Below the pieces are notes generated by a model. The model was not told where the DNA came from and ran no database searches. It saw only the letters and a list, made by a program, of their open reading frames with translations. From a virus: DNA of 36,131 nt. Of this stretch, positions 25,380 through 33,411 are shown one piece after another. The translations under genes were made by a program, and so were the position numbers. The stretch is taken from IMG/VR virus record IMGVR_UViG_3300021375_000085, positions 1 through 36,131 of that record; one strand, 5' to 3'. Every line of letters starts with the position of its first letter. Position 1 is the stretch's first letter.

Positions 25380-27146
25380 CTATCCGTCACATGCTAAACA
25401 ATCTTCACTCATAGCTTGCTGTGCAATATCTCCACGTAAAACAGATTCTGTTCTAGTATAGTATAAGGTTTTAACACCTTTTTTCCAAGCTTCAAAATGT
25501 ACTTTGTTAATCCATTTAGGTGTTGCCTCTGATGGAAAAGCTAAATTTAAACTAACAGCTTGATCTATATATTGCTGACGTATACCAGCTTGATTAACTA
25601 GCTCTAGTTGATTAATTTCTTTAAATGTTTTAAACACATCCTTAACTTTATCATAACCAGTAGAATCTACTTCTTCTTGTTCTGATAACTTAACTAACTT
25701 CCTATTAACATAACCCCAGCCATCAAGCTCTGGTATATCTTGAACACTACCGCCATCAGCTAGTATCTTGTTCCAAGTTTCATTATTGTTAATATTGATT
25801 TTTCTTAATACCTTTATTAACTCTTTGTTTTTCCTAATGAACGTACCCTTCGCACTTTGTTCAGTGAATACATTAGCGGCCCAAGGCTCAATGCCAGGGC
25901 TAACATTACCACTAAGCTTACTGTTAGAAACGGTAGGAGCAATAGCACGAAGATGAGTGTTACGCATACCCGTTCCAGCACACCATAAAGGTTCACCATA
26001 AATCTCAGCAAGATCTCTGGAAGCTCTTTCACTTTCGATTTTAATTTGGCTAAAAATCTTCCTAGTTTCAAACTGAGATTGTAAGCCTTCAAAAGGTATT
26101 CCTCTTTCTTGGAGGTATGTGTGCCATCCAAGGACTCCCAAGCCCAAAGCACGCCCTTTATTTGCTGATCTAACACTATTTTCGAAACCTCGAAGCCCTT
26201 TGGCGCGTTGAATAAATTCTTCCATAACCCCATCAAGAAAGTATATTGAGTCATATATAAGGTTAGTATCTTTCCATTCTTCATATTTTGCTAAATTTAA
26301 TGATGATAAGCAGCAAACAAAGCTGTGCGACTCATCTGTATGTAATGCGATTTCTGAACATATATTTGTCATATGAACTTTTAAACCATTTTCTTTGTAT
26401 GCTTTTGGATTTGATTTGTTAACATTCCCTTTAAACATGACATACGGTTCTCCAGTTGCTTTTCGTTTTCTAAGAAGTTTACTCCATCTATTTCTAGCGT
26501 CCGCATCTCCTTGTTCAAGACGTCGCATAAACTTATCACCAACAACTGCGCACTGATGTAAATTAAGCGATTGTCTGTTAACATCTCCTTTCGGTTCTCG
26601 TATTTCAAGCCACTCTTCAAAATCATCATGCTCAATGTTGATGTTAACGCTTGCAGCTCCTCTTCGAACTGATCCTTGATTTGTTGCAAGGATTGTTGAG
26701 TCATATATTTTGCAGAATGGTACGACTCCATCTGATGTTCCATTTCCTGTAATTTTAGCGCCAGCGGGTCTAATCATATTAACTCCGACGCCAACTCCAC
26801 CGCCGTGCTTAGCGAGTAGCATCATCTCTAAATTCTTTTGTCCTATGTCTTGGATGCTATCAGCCACATCAATCCCGAAACAGCTAATAGGCAAACCCCG
26901 ATCAGTACCTGTATTAGATAGTACTGGGCTAGCGAGACATAGCCAGCCATTCCATATGTATTCGAAGAAAGTTTGCGCCATTTCCGGCTTATATAATCTA
27001 CGAGCAACTGTTTTAGCAACCCGAAGGTAAGCTTCTCTCGGCGACTCTCCGTCGAATAAATATCCCCCGGATATAGTCTTCTTGTATACGTCCGTATCAC
27101 CCCACGTAGGGTAATCTTCACCTTTGATCCATTCATTATTCCACAT
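25380..27146 (-). CDS. nrdA: Ribonucleotide reductase class I, large (catalytic) subunit
   Basis: This 588-aa protein reduces ribonucleoside diphosphates to deoxy forms with its NrdB partner. Key residues are visible: redox Cys C89 (PISCFG) and its likely partner in SFVCC (278/279); the active-site triad N261-C263-E265 (TNICSEI); radical-transfer tyrosines Y562/Y563 (YYTRTES); and the C-terminal re-reduction pair C583/C586 (DCLACDG). Compared with the about 760-aa E. coli protein, the N-terminal ATP-cone is absent, so dATP feedback inhibition is probably missing. It is the last gene of the leftward operon; its start overlaps the 68-aa gene by 11 nt. nrdB lies four genes upstream in transcription order. 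Confidence 0.95.
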   Translation of the reverse strand: MWNNEWIKGEDYPTWGDTDVYKKTISGGYLFDGESPREAYLRVAKTVARRLYKPEMAQTFFEYIWNGWLCLASPVLSNTGTDRGLPISCFGIDVADSIQDIGQKNLEMMLLAKHGGGVGVGVNMIRPAGAKITGNGTSDGVVPFCKIYDSTILATNQGSVRRGAASVNINIEHDDFEEWLEIREPKGDVNRQSLNLHQCAVVGDKFMRRLEQGDADARNRWSKLLRKRKATGEPYVMFKGNVNKSNPKAYKENGLKVHMTNICSEIALHTDESHSFVCCLSSLNLAKYEEWKDTNLIYDSIYFLDGVMEEFIQRAKGLRGFENSVRSANKGRALGLGVLGWHTYLQERGIPFEGLQSQFETRKIFSQIKIESERASRDLAEIYGEPLWCAGTGMRNTHLRAIAPTVSNSKLSGNVSPGIEPWAANVFTEQSAKGTFIRKNKELIKVLRKININNNETWNKILADGGSVQDIPELDGWGYVNRKLVKLSEQEEVDSTGYDKVKDVFKTFKEINQLELVNQAGIRQQYIDQAVSLNLAFPSEATPKWINKVHFEAWKKGVKTLYYTRTESVLRGDIAQQAMSEDCLACDG

Positions 27147-27908: not shown

Positions 27909-28877
27909 TTACCAAATATCCTCGAAGTCCTCTCCTTCACCAGCTTTCGAGTAATCTGTCGGCCTAATCGCGAAAAAATCAGTATGAGTGACCCCGCCGG
28001 TAAGATGATAGAACCAATCAAGATTAGCCGCTGCCACCTTGTCATATTTGAAATGCGATTCCAAATCTTTATATCCAAGTTCAACCAGTTTTTCATTTGT
28101 TCTTTTCTTTATAAAATGTTTAAGATCATTAGCTTTGATGCCTTCAATGTCACCCATTTCAAACATCTTATCGATATATTTAGTCTCTAGATTAATCATA
28201 GTTTCAGCTGCATCAATAATATCTTTTTTACAAAGATCTTTTAATTGATTGTTTTCAGCACACATATCACGGAATAGCTTGCATCCCATTTTACTGTGTA
28301 ATGATTCATCTCTTACACTCCATTTCATTTGCTGACCAATACCCTTAAGTAGATTACGCAACTGAAAAGAATAAAGTACTGCAAATGCAGAATATAAAGA
28401 TACTCCTTCTGCGAAAGCTGAAAAGATAGCAAGTGACTTACCAATACCAATAGATGAGGTACCATTATAAGCAACAAGATTATTAAATCTATCGCTAGTA
28501 GCCGGCTCGTGTAAAAATGCTTCATAATCTTCTAATCCTAAAGTTTCGTTTAAATAACTATAAGCAACCGCATGTATTGTTTCTTGCGAACCAAACATCA
28601 TTGCCATTTGTTGTATCTCATGTTTTGGAAACCAACCAACAACTTTTTGTGTCCAGTAATCTGAAACAGCACACTCAGTTTGTGCAAAACCTAGTAGTAT
28701 ATTTCCTACTAAGTTTTTTTCTTCAGCTGTAAGTCTTTCGTTCCAATCTTTGATGTCACTTTGCATTGATATTTCAGTGTGTAACCAAAACGCTTGTGCT
28801 TGCTTTAACCACCCTTCAGTATAGTACTCTGGATATTCAAACGGTTTGTACGCTATGCGCTCATCAAATAATCCCAT
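27909..28877 (-). CDS. nrdB: Ribonucleotide reductase class I, small (radical) subunit
   Basis: This 322-aa protein is a di-iron ferritin-like subunit that generates the radical for NrdA. The ligand set reads E68, E99, H102, E157, E191 and H194, with spacing like E. coli NrdB (31 residues between the first two, 34 between the fourth and fifth); the first ligand is Glu instead of Asp. The radical tyrosine is kept (Y106 in ETIHAVAY), so this is a tyrosyl-radical type and not the Phe-substituted class Ic. The acidic C-terminus (GEDFEDIW) would dock on NrdA. Its start overlaps the upstream 53-aa gene by one base. Confidence 0.95.
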   Translation of the reverse strand: MGLFDERIAYKPFEYPEYYTEGWLKQAQAFWLHTEISMQSDIKDWNERLTAEEKNLVGNILLGFAQTECAVSDYWTQKVVGWFPKHEIQQMAMMFGSQETIHAVAYSYLNETLGLEDYEAFLHEPATSDRFNNLVAYNGTSSIGIGKSLAIFSAFAEGVSLYSAFAVLYSFQLRNLLKGIGQQMKWSVRDESLHSKMGCKLFRDMCAENNQLKDLCKKDIIDAAETMINLETKYIDKMFEMGDIEGIKANDLKHFIKKRTNEKLVELGYKDLESHFKYDKVAAANLDWFYHLTGGVTHTDFFAIRPTDYSKAGEGEDFEDIW

Positions 28878-29729: not shown

Positions 29730-30033
29730 AAACTTCGATATTTTTCAAAGAATCGTAATGATCTCCGTCATTACCGTTTTGGCCTATAATGTTCATGCGT
29801 CTTAACAGAACATCTTCAACCTCGTCGGCTAGACAACGCTTAGCAGCCTCTATGTATAGCAAAGCATCCATTAGTTCTTCTTGAACATCTACTAAAAATC
29901 TATTAAGATCTTTTTCTTGACCTTCAATTTCTTGCATCATAGTAGCTCCATATTTTTTTTGACCTACTAAGCTACGTTCGTCCATTTTAGCTAGTACTTG
30001 TTGTACAATTTTATCTTTAGTTTTAATCTTCAT
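29710..30033 (-). CDS. MazG-like NTP pyrophosphohydrolase (short form)
   Basis: This 107-aa protein is helical and contains GQKKYGATMM near residue 25 and LNRFLVDVQEELMDALLYIE (43-62). The QEEL-xx-A-xx-Y core and the KYG element match all-alpha NTP pyrophosphohydrolases found in many phages. These hydrolyse non-canonical or surplus (d)NTPs to monophosphates. The C-terminal 30 residues are acidic and probably unstructured. It overlaps both neighbours (11 and 20 nt). With RNR, the ThyA homologue and the adjacent MazG fusion it suggests an active dNTP-remodelling module. Confidence 0.65.
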   Translation of the reverse strand: MKIKTKDKIVQQVLAKMDERSLVGQKKYGATMMQEIEGQEKDLNRFLVDVQEELMDALLYIEAAKRCLADEVEDVLLRRMNIIGQNGNDGDHYDSLKNIEVYDEETL

Positions 30034-30802
30034 CTTTTACAAATGTTCCGTTAATCATTTTACCTGTTCTTTTGTTTATAATATCATAAGCAGACGCTAT
30101 ACAGTCTTCAATATAATAACCTTTTAAATGTGCTAAGTTTGTTAAAACAACAACTATATCACCGATAGCATCAACAACTTCAGGTTCATCTTTTTTAAGT
30201 AAAGCTTTAGCTAACTCACCAGCTTCTTCTTGAAGTTTAACATATTGAGTCATCGGATCACCTTTGTCGTATAAACCCCTATTTTCTGCCCACTCTCTAA
30301 TGTTTTCAAAAACAGTCATTGTTTTTAAACCAGCTATAGGTTTACTAGCATTTGTTGGATTAAAAAAGGCTTCATAAAAAGCCTTGTTATAAATGTAGCT
30401 TCGATTGTCGTTATACATCGAGGTTTTAGCGTTAGACATAATCCACTTAATATTATCGTTTGTAATTTCAAACTCATACCCTTGTGGTGTTTGCCATTTT
30501 AATCCTACATTATCAGCAAGATGTCCTTTTAATTTATTAATAGGAACAGGAAACGTACTTGTTTGTTCTGTTGGGTTTATTTTCATATTTGATTTAAATA
30601 AATTTTTATAAAGTGTTCTATCTTTTTTATAGCCATAAGACTGTTGAAGTTCTATTTCGCGGTCTGATATATAATCTATATCGTCTGACTGCTCAAGAAC
30701 TTCGTACTCACCCTCCTTATAGCCTTGTATAAGGGTTACTCTGGTATTAAGATTACGTGTTACACCGATTTTTTTACCCGGTATGTGATATAAATAATAC
30801 AT
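30023..30802 (-). CDS. GIY-YIG-like domain fused to MazG pyrophosphohydrolase
   Basis: I place the start at the ATG at 30802, 5 nt after the upstream stop and behind a TTTAATTAT leader; an ATG at 30868 would add 22 residues lying inside the ThyA gene. The 259-aa product has three parts. Residues 1-65 (MYYLYHIPGKKIGVTRNLNTR and DREIELQQSYG) show the Tyr, Arg and Glu pattern of GIY-YIG nucleases. Residues 70-155 are a linker region with IKWIMSNAKTSMY. Residues 160-259 are a MazG domain: KLQEEAGELAKALLKK, then VVDAIGDIVVVL (EExxE and ExxD ligands of Mg). MazG hydrolyses NTPs or (p)ppGpp; the N-terminal part may be catalytically degenerate. Confidence 0.7.
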   Translation of the reverse strand: MYYLYHIPGKKIGVTRNLNTRVTLIQGYKEGEYEVLEQSDDIDYISDREIELQQSYGYKKDRTLYKNLFKSNMKINPTEQTSTFPVPINKLKGHLADNVGLKWQTPQGYEFEITNDNIKWIMSNAKTSMYNDNRSYIYNKAFYEAFFNPTNASKPIAGLKTMTVFENIREWAENRGLYDKGDPMTQYVKLQEEAGELAKALLKKDEPEVVDAIGDIVVVLTNLAHLKGYYIEDCIASAYDIINKRTGKMINGTFVKDED

Positions 30803-30806
30803 ATAA

Positions 30807-31457
30807 TTAAATTTTATTGTTATATAAGTGCATGTTATGCGCGTGATGATAATACCAACCCGTGTCAATAGACAGCCTGTCTGCGATCATCTCTTGCAAT
30901 GATGCAAATTGATACTGATCGTTGCAGAAACCGTACCATAAATCATTAGAACGCATATAGACGGACATACAAAGCTTATTGTTTAATATAGTAAACTGAA
31001 TAGCATACGTACAAGGTGTATCTTTTTTATACGATGGCCATTCTTTAGCGTCGTATATACTTATAGCTGCGTGTCGTGTTTCTGGGTTATCTTTAAGCTT
31101 AGCGACAACATAATCTATTTGATCGTGTCGTTTCCACTGATAACCGTAATTAGAATTAACTTCACCATTTTCGTCAGCCATCATTTCCCATATAAGAGGT
31201 ATGCTTCCGTATAACTCACCAAGCTTGCTAATTCTAGGATCACCAGATAAATACCATTGCCATTCAGCTTCAGCATATTTTTGATTCCATTTTCTATTTT
31301 TAGATCTTATAATTTTATCAGAAGGATTTTCCATATAAAACCCTACATTAAACAAAGCTACAGTGTCACTAAATTTTACACCTGTTTTAATAAGAGCATC
31401 GTGTAAATAATCGAAAGCTTCATTAGCGTTTTTAAATGTTCTGTTTGTATCTGTCAT
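30807..31457 (-). CDS. Thymidylate synthase-fold enzyme, possible dCMP-type
   Basis: The 216-aa product from the ATG at 31457 has the ThyA layout: E65 in AEWQWYL, W90 in LIWEMMADENG, nucleophile C149 in DTPCTY, phosphate-site R169-S-N-D, and HLY near the end. Longer starts exist (ATG 31478, TTG 31496), but they add only non-conserved residues inside the upstream gene. In a gap-free alignment to E. coli ThyA from RSxD onward, N177, which reads the uracil ring, becomes D180. T4 dCMP hydroxymethylase carries Asp there, so this may act on dCMP. N179 next to it could substitute with a one-residue shift, so plain dTMP synthesis is not excluded. Confidence 0.8.
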   Translation of the reverse strand: MTDTNRTFKNANEAFDYLHDALIKTGVKFSDTVALFNVGFYMENPSDKIIRSKNRKWNQKYAEAEWQWYLSGDPRISKLGELYGSIPLIWEMMADENGEVNSNYGYQWKRHDQIDYVVAKLKDNPETRHAAISIYDAKEWPSYKKDTPCTYAIQFTILNNKLCMSVYMRSNDLWYGFCNDQYQFASLQEMIADRLSIDTGWYYHHAHNMHLYNNKI

Positions 31458-31698
31458 AATAGTATTTACAATATTCATATAGTTTCTCCCACACAAGTCC
31501 TTCTATAAACGTGTTAGGGGATTTGTTAGTTTTACCGTTGATTGTTATTTCAATCCACCACAAACCTTCTTCTTTTGCTTTTGGTGATATTTTTATATTA
31601 TTTCTAACACACCAAATATAAGCTTCAGTTTCTTCTTGTGTTGGATTATACTCGCCCATGTACCAACCGGTTTTCTTTTTATTCCAAGCAGCCGCCAT
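31432..31698 (-). CDS. 88-aa hypothetical protein between primase-helicase and ThyA homologue
   Basis: Not recognised. The product has an aromatic-rich N-terminus (KKTGWYMGEYNPTQEE), a central strand-rich part (LWWIEITINGKTNKSPN) and a Tyr-rich helix at the end (YEYCKYYYDRYK). Trp and Tyr make up an unusually large share. It starts one base after the primase-helicase stop and overlaps the ThyA homologue by 26 nt, so it is probably translated with it. Confidence 0.6.
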   Translation of the reverse strand: MAAAWNKKKTGWYMGEYNPTQEETEAYIWCVRNNIKISPKAKEEGLWWIEITINGKTNKSPNTFIEGLVWEKLYEYCKYYYDRYKQNI

Positions 31699-33411
31699 TT
31701 ATTCCCAAGGCATTTTCTCTTGTTCCATACCTAACGGTTGATGAGGTATAAAGCAACCTGACTTTGGTTCCCACTTGAAGTGAGCTTCAGCACCGTTTTC
31801 ACCGAGGTTTTGGAATTTGACTTTAAGTATTTTTGCTTTAACAGTTTTCTCTTCATAGTTTCTATGAACAAGTATACCATGATAACTAGCATCATACCAT
31901 TCACCACCACCCTTGATGTTATACATTGTTGGTTCTTCAATTTTACCATCTTTATCTTTATACATTTTAGTTGGATGTGCTACTATAAAAACTAATACAT
32001 CGTACTTTTTAGCAAATGATTCAATCTTAGTTAGATATTCCATTGTATAACGGTTAACATCTTCTGTCTTACAATCAACGTCTCTAACTTTATTAAATGG
32101 GTCAATGACTAAGCATTTAATACCTTTACGTTTTACAAGCTCAGCGCCTTTGCGTAGTACTGATTCAAGCGTGTAACGTTCCATATCAATAAAAAAGTAA
32201 TTACTATTAACATGATCTGCTACTTGATTCCATTTATCACCGTGTATATCAGCTGACGTAGGCATACCTTGCCAGGTTTTACGCATTAATTTATGAGCGT
32301 GTAAATATGTCGGTGCATTTTCTGGAGAAGCAAATGCCGTTTTCCAACCATAATTAGCGTTATACCCAACAACCATTTGATCGACAAAATCCGACTTCCC
32401 AGAAGACGGTATCCCAGTAACAGTAATGAATTGACCAGTGTAAGTTGAAAAGATGTCGTCAAAATTTGGTAAGCCAACTTGAAATCCTTTCTTAAAGCCA
32501 TTACGAACAAAGTCGGTAACTTCGTCTTCAATATCCCTGAATGTTGTAACATTCTCAAGCGGTACTGGTCTTGCGTTTGAAATACGCTGTACCAATTTTT
32601 CTTTGCCATATTTTAATAAATATTCATTAGCATCTTTACAGTCTTCAAACGTGGCTAAGAAACAAACTTCAGCACCAAGACGTCTAACTAATTCTTGTTG
32701 TAAAGCTTGACCTGCTTCGTCTGAATCTACAGCTAAGATAATCTTTTCTTTATCATCGAAATAATCGATGCAGTTATCAAGATAATCTAAGTTGTTAGAA
32801 TTAAGCGTAGCGCCGTTTGGAACTGAAACAGCATTTGGTATACCAGCTTCGTGTAAAGCTAACACATCCATCTCACCTTCAGTAACTATACAATATTCAT
32901 AACCAACAATACTATTGATGTTATAAAATACTTTCTCAGCGCCTTTAAATAATTTAAAGTTCTTTCTACCATCGCGATACTTAATATTAATAAGTTGATC
33001 GCCCATGAAATAATTGAACTTTATAGTATTCTCGGTCTTACCGGTTTGTGGCATATACTCAGTACCCTCACCAACTTTTACATCGGTGAGAGTTTGCTGA
33101 GATATTCCTCTAGATTTAAACCATTCAACAACTTTACTACTAACCTCAGGTAATACCTCAGGCGTATCAGGTCGCACATATACTTTTTCAGACGCACCTT
33201 TGCGTTGATAAGTATGTAGTTGAAAACTAGTGTTACAATTGTGACAAGTACCGAGACCCCGTTCCCAATCATAAGAAGCACATTTTGCTTTTTGGTTTTT
33301 GGGTTGTCTATTATCGGAACACAAAGGACAAGTCCCCTGTGTTTTACCCTCTTCTAGACCATATTGATTGAAATTATCAATCAAGAATCCATTGATCTCT
33401 GTTGTCTGCAT
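31699..33411 (-). CDS. T7 gp4-like primase-helicase
   Basis: This 570-aa bifunctional protein primes and unwinds DNA at the fork. A zinc-binding domain at the N-terminus has C28/C31 and C56/C59. The TOPRIM primase follows with E178 (TEGEMDV) and D229/D231 (VDSDEAG). The RecA-like helicase has Walker A at 333-340 (GIPSSGKS), Walker B LVIDPF at 434-439 and VAHPTK as the following H-type motif. The acidic C-terminus (EKMPWE) is like the T7 gp4 tail that contacts the polymerase. The order matches T7 gp4. It stands after an ATTAA-repeat leader and a 21-codon micro-ORF. The DNA polymerase is not in the window. Confidence 0.92.
   Translation of the reverse strand: MQTTEINGFLIDNFNQYGLEEGKTQGTCPLCSDNRQPKNQKAKCASYDWERGLGTCHNCNTSFQLHTYQRKGASEKVYVRPDTPEVLPEVSSKVVEWFKSRGISQQTLTDVKVGEGTEYMPQTGKTENTIKFNYFMGDQLINIKYRDGRKNFKLFKGAEKVFYNINSIVGYEYCIVTEGEMDVLALHEAGIPNAVSVPNGATLNSNNLDYLDNCIDYFDDKEKIILAVDSDEAGQALQQELVRRLGAEVCFLATFEDCKDANEYLLKYGKEKLVQRISNARPVPLENVTTFRDIEDEVTDFVRNGFKKGFQVGLPNFDDIFSTYTGQFITVTGIPSSGKSDFVDQMVVGYNANYGWKTAFASPENAPTYLHAHKLMRKTWQGMPTSADIHGDKWNQVADHVNSNYFFIDMERYTLESVLRKGAELVKRKGIKCLVIDPFNKVRDVDCKTEDVNRYTMEYLTKIESFAKKYDVLVFIVAHPTKMYKDKDGKIEEPTMYNIKGGGEWYDASYHGILVHRNYEEKTVKAKILKVKFQNLGENGAEAHFKWEPKSGCFIPHQPLGMEQEKMPWE

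Follow-up and report, generated by a model that had tools for sequence, protein, structure and literature searches.

Genes around the thymidylate-synthase-fold enzyme

The window analyzed here is the entire IMG/VR record of 36,131 bases, which may be a piece of a larger genome. At 30807-31457 on the minus strand lies an ORF of 216 aa, judged to be real, that begins with the ATG at 31457. A longer form of 223 aa (P0001) would result from an in-frame ATG further upstream, at 31478; its residue numbers are those of the 216-aa form plus 7. The start at 31457 was preferred, as the proteins of many relatives begin at the matching position, where the gene runs over the 3′ end of a conserved ORF ahead of it. 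Residue numbering throughout is that of the 216-aa form. The order of genes on the minus strand is primase-helicase, small ORF, enzyme, MazG/PRA-PH protein, DUF1064 nuclease, and the small and large subunits of ribonucleotide reductase, of which the following were used:

31699..33411, minus strand: DNA primase-helicase, the neutral marker for sampling the slot in relatives
31432..31698, minus strand: small conserved ORF of 88 aa without family match, its 3′ end overlapping the start of the enzyme gene
30807..31457, minus strand: D177-type thymidylate-synthase-fold enzyme, predicted dCMP 5-hydroxymethylase (E65, C149, T150, R169, S170, D172, N179, D180, H210, Y212)
30023..30802, minus strand: protein whose C-terminal domain is a MazG/PRA-PH nucleotide pyrophosphohydrolase (PF03819 and PF01503, both exceeding their curated cut-offs; phrog_1992/715, MazG-like)
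27909..28877, minus strand: ribonucleotide reductase small subunit (PF00268, 8e-56), deoxynucleotide supply
25380..27146, minus strand: ribonucleotide reductase large subunit (PF02867, 1.5e-90), deoxynucleotide supply

The enzyme matches Pfam PF00303 with an E value of 2.7e-28, the profile being covered up to position 215 of 266, where the window protein family stops. The names given to it by NCBIfam are those of thymidylate synthase (TS), every such match lying far below its cut-off. Megablast of the DNA against known phages returned zero matches, and scans of the window for promoters, terminators, tRNAs and Rfam families returned nothing above chance.

The gene for the MazG/PRA-PH protein begins a few bases after the stop of the enzyme gene. 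This adjacency is kept in relatives, a PRA-PH/MazG domain is present in 28 of 28 related records, and the protein is a candidate dCTPase. In the MetaGPA study, TS co-occurs with PF01503 on modified contigs, and the PF14743 DNA ligase is among the modification-associated domains (PMC8670742); that ligase was found in 16 of 23 related records, outside the window. Adjacency to MazG was dropped as proof of dCTPase activity, since MazG accompanies all three enzyme types described below. It was also observed that Pfam matched only the C-terminal part of the protein at 30023-30802, and that its N-terminal part (YLYHIPGKKIGVTRNL...) appears by eye to be of the GIY-YIG type.

Regarding other genes of the pathway, one TS-fold gene per genome is the rule among 53 records, the exceptions being G012, where one end is duplicated, and G018, which seems to be a double record. 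In records that may be fragments, neither ThyX nor dCMP deaminase was found (28 related records), nor phage DHFR (53 records), a thymidylate-kinase-family protein (23 records) or a carbamoyltransferase (38 records); no glycosyltransferase was recognized in the one relative annotated. Since no thymidylate-kinase-family kinase, carbamoyltransferase or glycosyltransferase was recognized, nothing resembling the downstream pathway of T4 is seen. The presence of DHFR was considered as a means of separating methylase from hydroxymethylase across the slot types and was uninformative, as no type has it. In the same 23 records, again possibly fragments, no family A DNA polymerase was found, yet primase-helicase, reductase and mostly ligase are present. 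One relative, G007, encodes a 239-aa protein between its reductase genes (L091:5297-6016) with an HxD...H pattern and a match to phrog_1644, which by eye resembles 2-oxoglutarate/Fe(II) oxygenases and was not seen at the equivalent place in the window. A GroEL-like chaperonin and a GroES-like protein are encoded in the same relative (L090:701-2251 and L089:14054-14659).

The base-selecting residue and the predicted reaction

The enzyme (RSNDLWYGFCND) and T4 gp42 (RSNDVVFGFRND) align without gaps through the base-selecting motif in the phmmer comparison with the PDB, and the structure of the T4 D179N mutant (6l18) reads FRNN there, so that D180 equals D179 of T4. A separate MAFFT alignment places D180 on N177 of E. 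coli ThyA, on T4 D179 and on the Asp of MilA, with Asn kept in the SPO1 dUMP hydroxymethylase; N179 falls on T4 Asn178 and E. coli F176. The original prediction had described a ThyA fold with Asp at the base-selecting position, aligned on N177 without gaps and paralleled by an Asp in T4 dCMP hydroxymethylase. The agreement of the two alignments, the Pfam match and the invariance of D180 in 81 sequences bear this out. It had also left a one-residue shift as an alternative, with N179 at the N177 site. This was dropped, since T4 gp42 itself carries Asn just ahead of Asp (FRND).

Relatives are encoded on 478 IMG/VR stretches, and the best 80 of these 478 are 66-75% identical to the window protein. 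Asp177 (E. coli ThyA numbering) and the preceding Asn176 are invariant in these 81 sequences. The equivalents of E58, W80, Y94, R126, C146, R166, S167, D169, G173, H207 and Y209 are all present in the window enzyme by alignment and, together with Thr147, are likewise invariant. That threonine, Thr150 here, takes the place of ThyA His147 and is found in T4 gp42 and MilA as well. As a control, 74 of 74 bacterial ThyAs have Phe-Asn at 176-177 and 73 of the 74 have His147; Asn177 is also found in the canonical phage ThyAs of Geobacillus E2 and D6E, Salmonella S16, Bacteroides BfrS23 and Arthrobacter Dynamite. In MetaGPA, the two residues that best separate the TS of cytosine-modified phage contigs from that of unmodified ones are those at 177 and 147, and the modified contigs have mostly Asp at 177 (PMC8670742). 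The Asp rule for cytosine was previously known (Hardy & Nalivaika 1992, and MetaGPA 2021, PMC8670742), and, as relayed in PMC8670742, replacement of Asn by Asp at 177 shifts preference to dCMP. Furthermore, Ser170 and Arg128 equal E. coli S167 and R126, residues of the deoxyribose type, at which MilA has Ala and Lys. The CMP preference of MilA is due to Ala176 and Lys133, and Ser and Arg are the residues of the deoxy-type enzymes (PMC5175136); Ser170 and Arg128 in the window protein therefore point to dCMP rather than CMP as the substrate.

The protein stops just past the HxY motif in the window and in nearly all of the 80 relatives. The short C-terminus is thus a trait of the family, and truncation or frameshift as its cause was ruled out. 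The tail of ThyA closes over the folate, and T4 gp42 is without 27 of those residues, its folate site being more open (PMC5175136). By analogy, the missing tail may favor hydroxymethylation, with water reaching the intermediate; the rule is not firm, as the TS of phage AXL1 has an unusual tail too.

An AlphaFold2 model built from 29 sequences reached a pLDDT of 84 and a pTM of 0.84. Foldseek ranked T4 dCMP hydroxymethylase and MilA first for this model, followed by ThyA. In VIA-align comparisons, which hold at the level of ranges, the first two structures were tied, namely 9iqc (Z 23.9, rmsd 2.3, 209 aligned) and MilA (Z 23.4, rmsd 1.6, 205 aligned), followed by T4 gp42 (Z 20.7, rmsd 2.4, 197 aligned) and ThyA at about 20.

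Taken together, the active-site alignment, the fold, the relatives, the neighboring genes and the published association of residue and phenotype favor dCMP over dUMP, in support of the candidate dCMP-modifying enzyme that had been predicted. The enzyme is probably a folate-dependent dCMP 5-hydroxymethylase of the T4 gp42 kind. Within this reading, specificity for cytosine is well supported, and a hydroxymethyl rather than a methyl product is moderately so. The cytosine base would be read by D180, with C149 attacking C6 and one carbon passing to C5 from methylene-tetrahydrofolate. Water, not hydride, would end the reaction, giving 5-hydroxymethyl-dCMP. The adjacent MazG-like protein would remove dCTP, and host kinases, none having been recognized in the phage, would raise 5-hydroxymethyl-dCMP to the triphosphate. 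Subsequently, 5-hydroxymethylcytosine would replace cytosine in the phage DNA and may shield it from host nucleases. The phage thus probably makes 5-hydroxymethyl-dCMP and carries a modified cytosine in its DNA, the case for incorporation of the modified base being a moderate one.

The alternative that survives best, though it is rather unlikely, is a dCMP 5-methylase, in which hydride from tetrahydrofolate would reduce the intermediate to 5-methyl-dCMP and the DNA would contain 5-methylcytosine as in phage Xp12. An engineered Asn177-to-Asp ThyA yields 5-methyl-dCMP, according to work cited in PMC8670742, and AXL1, which is related to Xp12 and resembles it in restriction pattern, has an Asp177 TS beside a nucleotide pyrophosphohydrolase. 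W80 and the folate-site residues are conserved in the window enzyme, as a methylase would have them; W80 helps shield the intermediate in ThyA, but its retention does not discriminate, since T4 gp42 keeps it too. Against a methylase stand the absence from the window family of the tail with which ThyA closes its site, the position of the family outside the canonical ThyA clade, and the lack of a phage DHFR in the 53 possibly fragmentary records, though the host has one.

It is very unlikely that the protein is a normal thymidylate synthase that uses dUMP and tolerates Asp180. The fold is common to both and the Pfam and NCBIfam names agree with it, the NCBIfam matches at their sub-threshold scores; however, Asp177 with Thr147 in 81 of 81 sequences, set against Asn177 in every bacterial ThyA of the control, the published exchanges relayed above and the missing tail all argue otherwise. 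An RB69/AfhB-like flavin-dependent enzyme, which would hydroxylate dCMP at C5 and lead to 5-hydroxycytosine, is likewise very unlikely. The tie of 9iqc with MilA, the similar length and the Asp kept there too would suit it, whereas RB69 ORF048c lacks E58, W80, D169 and G173 (F, V, N and a non-Gly residue are aligned there) and the window family keeps all four; loss of these four residues may mark the flavin-type family. Moreover, the sequence profile score to this flavin-type enzyme is 54.7 bits, compared with 90.8 for MilA and 76.3 for T4 gp42. A ribonucleotide (CMP) hydroxymethylase like MilA is highly improbable, since the Ala176 and Lys133 of MilA are Ser and Arg in the window enzyme, even with MilA as the top PDB sequence match.

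Enzyme lineages in a single slot

Relatives were sampled by the primase-helicase, a marker blind to the enzyme. This gave 80 loci, which are nearest relatives rather than independent draws; 79 reach the slot and one contig ends too soon. Three types of enzyme can be observed among the 79 loci: type 1, the window kind, in 48; type 2, ThyA-like and full-length with His147, in 19; and type 3, ThyA-like and full-length with Tyr147, in 12. Asp177 is present in 79 of 79 slot enzymes and Asn in none, and the order primase, enzyme, MazG is found in all 79. In one type 1 copy, Ile replaces the Asn directly before Asp177. In a separate search, His147 was combined with Asp177 in 80 of 80 relatives of type 2. 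Examples of type 2 are L180-L259, L132 and L134, and of type 3 L149, L151, L159, L175 and L179. Record G018 (129,537 bases; L100, L101) contains the replication module twice, with a different slot enzyme in each copy, and probably represents two joined genomes; its type 2 gene is split, with near-identical intact copies in other records.

In a tree of 63 proteins, whose deeper placements are unsure owing to long branches, the canonical ThyA clade (support 100/100) includes type 2 beside Asn-type ThyAs, and type 3 forms an outer branch of that clade (100/99). Type 1 lies outside it, nearest to an enzyme of Bacteroides phage BF503P2 (89/58). T4 gp42 lies outside as well, on a very long branch of unsure place. 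Most likely, Asp177 was gained independently by type 2 at least. On the tree of the primase-helicase, the three types need 13 changes compared with a shuffled mean of 28.0; for each type, branches with good support require a minimum of five or six changes. Together with Asp177 in every slot enzyme, these changes imply that the slot swaps its enzyme but keeps the base-reading residue.

Judged from their residues, types 2 and 3 are predicted to be natural dCMP methylases, a reading that gains support from the Asp177 of AXL1 and PaMx28. It is about an even chance that in these marine phages the slot is selected for a cytosine-directed TS-fold enzyme, with unrelated lineages swapped repeatedly, one tail-less and gp42-like (5hmC) and two of the ThyA type (methylases, 5mC), such that relatives switch their cytosine chemistry through one gene. 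If the proposed function is true, a large group of aquatic phages with kinship to Bacteroidota phages, none of it cultured to date, swaps cytosine for a modified cytosine, and restriction, CRISPR and sequencing of that group would be affected. Three natural Asp177 enzymes in one slot also provide a test of the single-residue rule for uracil versus cytosine, and the same exchange probes what decides between methyl and hydroxymethyl.

Comparison with known systems

The closest enzyme found in a cultured phage is WAX07047.1 of Bacteroides phage BF503P2, annotated by similarity only as a “deoxycytidylate 5-hydroxymethyltransferase”. It shares about 41% identity, an FCND motif and the short C-terminus with the window enzyme; unlike the window, BF503P2 carries a second, divergent TS-fold gene. 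The product of this second gene (L002:17148-17954) has Leu, Tyr and Leu at E58, W80 and G173 and keeps Asp177. It is a candidate for 5-hydroxy-dCMP synthase chemistry, its losses at the folate site being rather like those of the RB69 enzyme. No TS-fold gene was found in the examined parts of Panino, elemo and phi10:1, to judge by portal or primase the nearest Bacteroidota phages in culture, and of the assembled genome MW202828; among these, no close cultured relative carrying the enzyme thus came to light.

T4 gp42 (PDB 1b49, 1b5d, 6a9a; D179N, 6l18) resembles the window enzyme in its fold, the Asn-Asp motif, the Cys-Thr pair and the lack of a ThyA C-terminal tail, and its catalytic, phosphate and folate residues are identical at the positions compared. 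It differs in sequence (about 31% identity) and in length, the window protein having 216 aa and ending right after HxY and that of T4 246 aa, and neither a glucosyltransferase nor a thymidylate-kinase-type kinase was recognized with the window enzyme. MilA (PDB 5jnh, 5b6d), the top sequence match in the PDB by phmmer (3e-20, with T4 gp42 at 2e-17), shares the fold, Asp at 177 and Thr at 147, but has the ribose-type Ala and Lys, carries Ala in place of W80 and is extended at the C-terminus by a helical domain.

Mosigvirus 5-hydroxy-dCMP synthase is a TS-superfamily homologue (PMC13390438). PDB entries 9iqc and 9iqu are near-identical to RB69 ORF048c, and their titles describe a riboflavin-dependent monooxygenase (9iqc, with dCMP and FAD) and the dCMP hydroxylase AfhB. 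This enzyme has the fold, Asp at 177, the Cys-Thr pair and the short C-terminus in common with that of the window and differs in the four folate-site positions discussed above and in being reported as flavin-dependent.

The Xp12-type dCMP methylase can be viewed through AXL1 and PaMx28. All cytosine of Xp12 is 5-methylcytosine, and the DNA of the related AXL1 resists restriction enzymes similarly, by a genetic mechanism reported as unknown (PMC9206674). The TS of AXL1 (L351:16623-17564) and that of PaMx28 read GLPYD, that is Asp177, and a pyrophosphohydrolase or hydrolase gene adjoins; such neighbors lend support to a pairing of enzyme and pyrophosphohydrolase. By its sequence, the AXL1 enzyme is a likely genetic basis of the Xp12-like restriction resistance. 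Asp177 and the pyrophosphohydrolase next door are shared with the window, while Pro at 147, the longer protein, and DHFR and dCMP deaminase in the cluster set AXL1 and PaMx28 apart.

The TS proteins of MetaGPA, from samples that include coastal seawater, agree in their published pattern, with Asp177, a changed residue 147 and co-occurring PF01503; the study makes no statement on three lineages in one slot (PMC8670742). A limited literature search likewise found no description of three Asp177 lineages replacing one another repeatedly in a single slot. The window enzyme belongs to a known kind of enzyme, and the repeated exchange in its slot is the new part.
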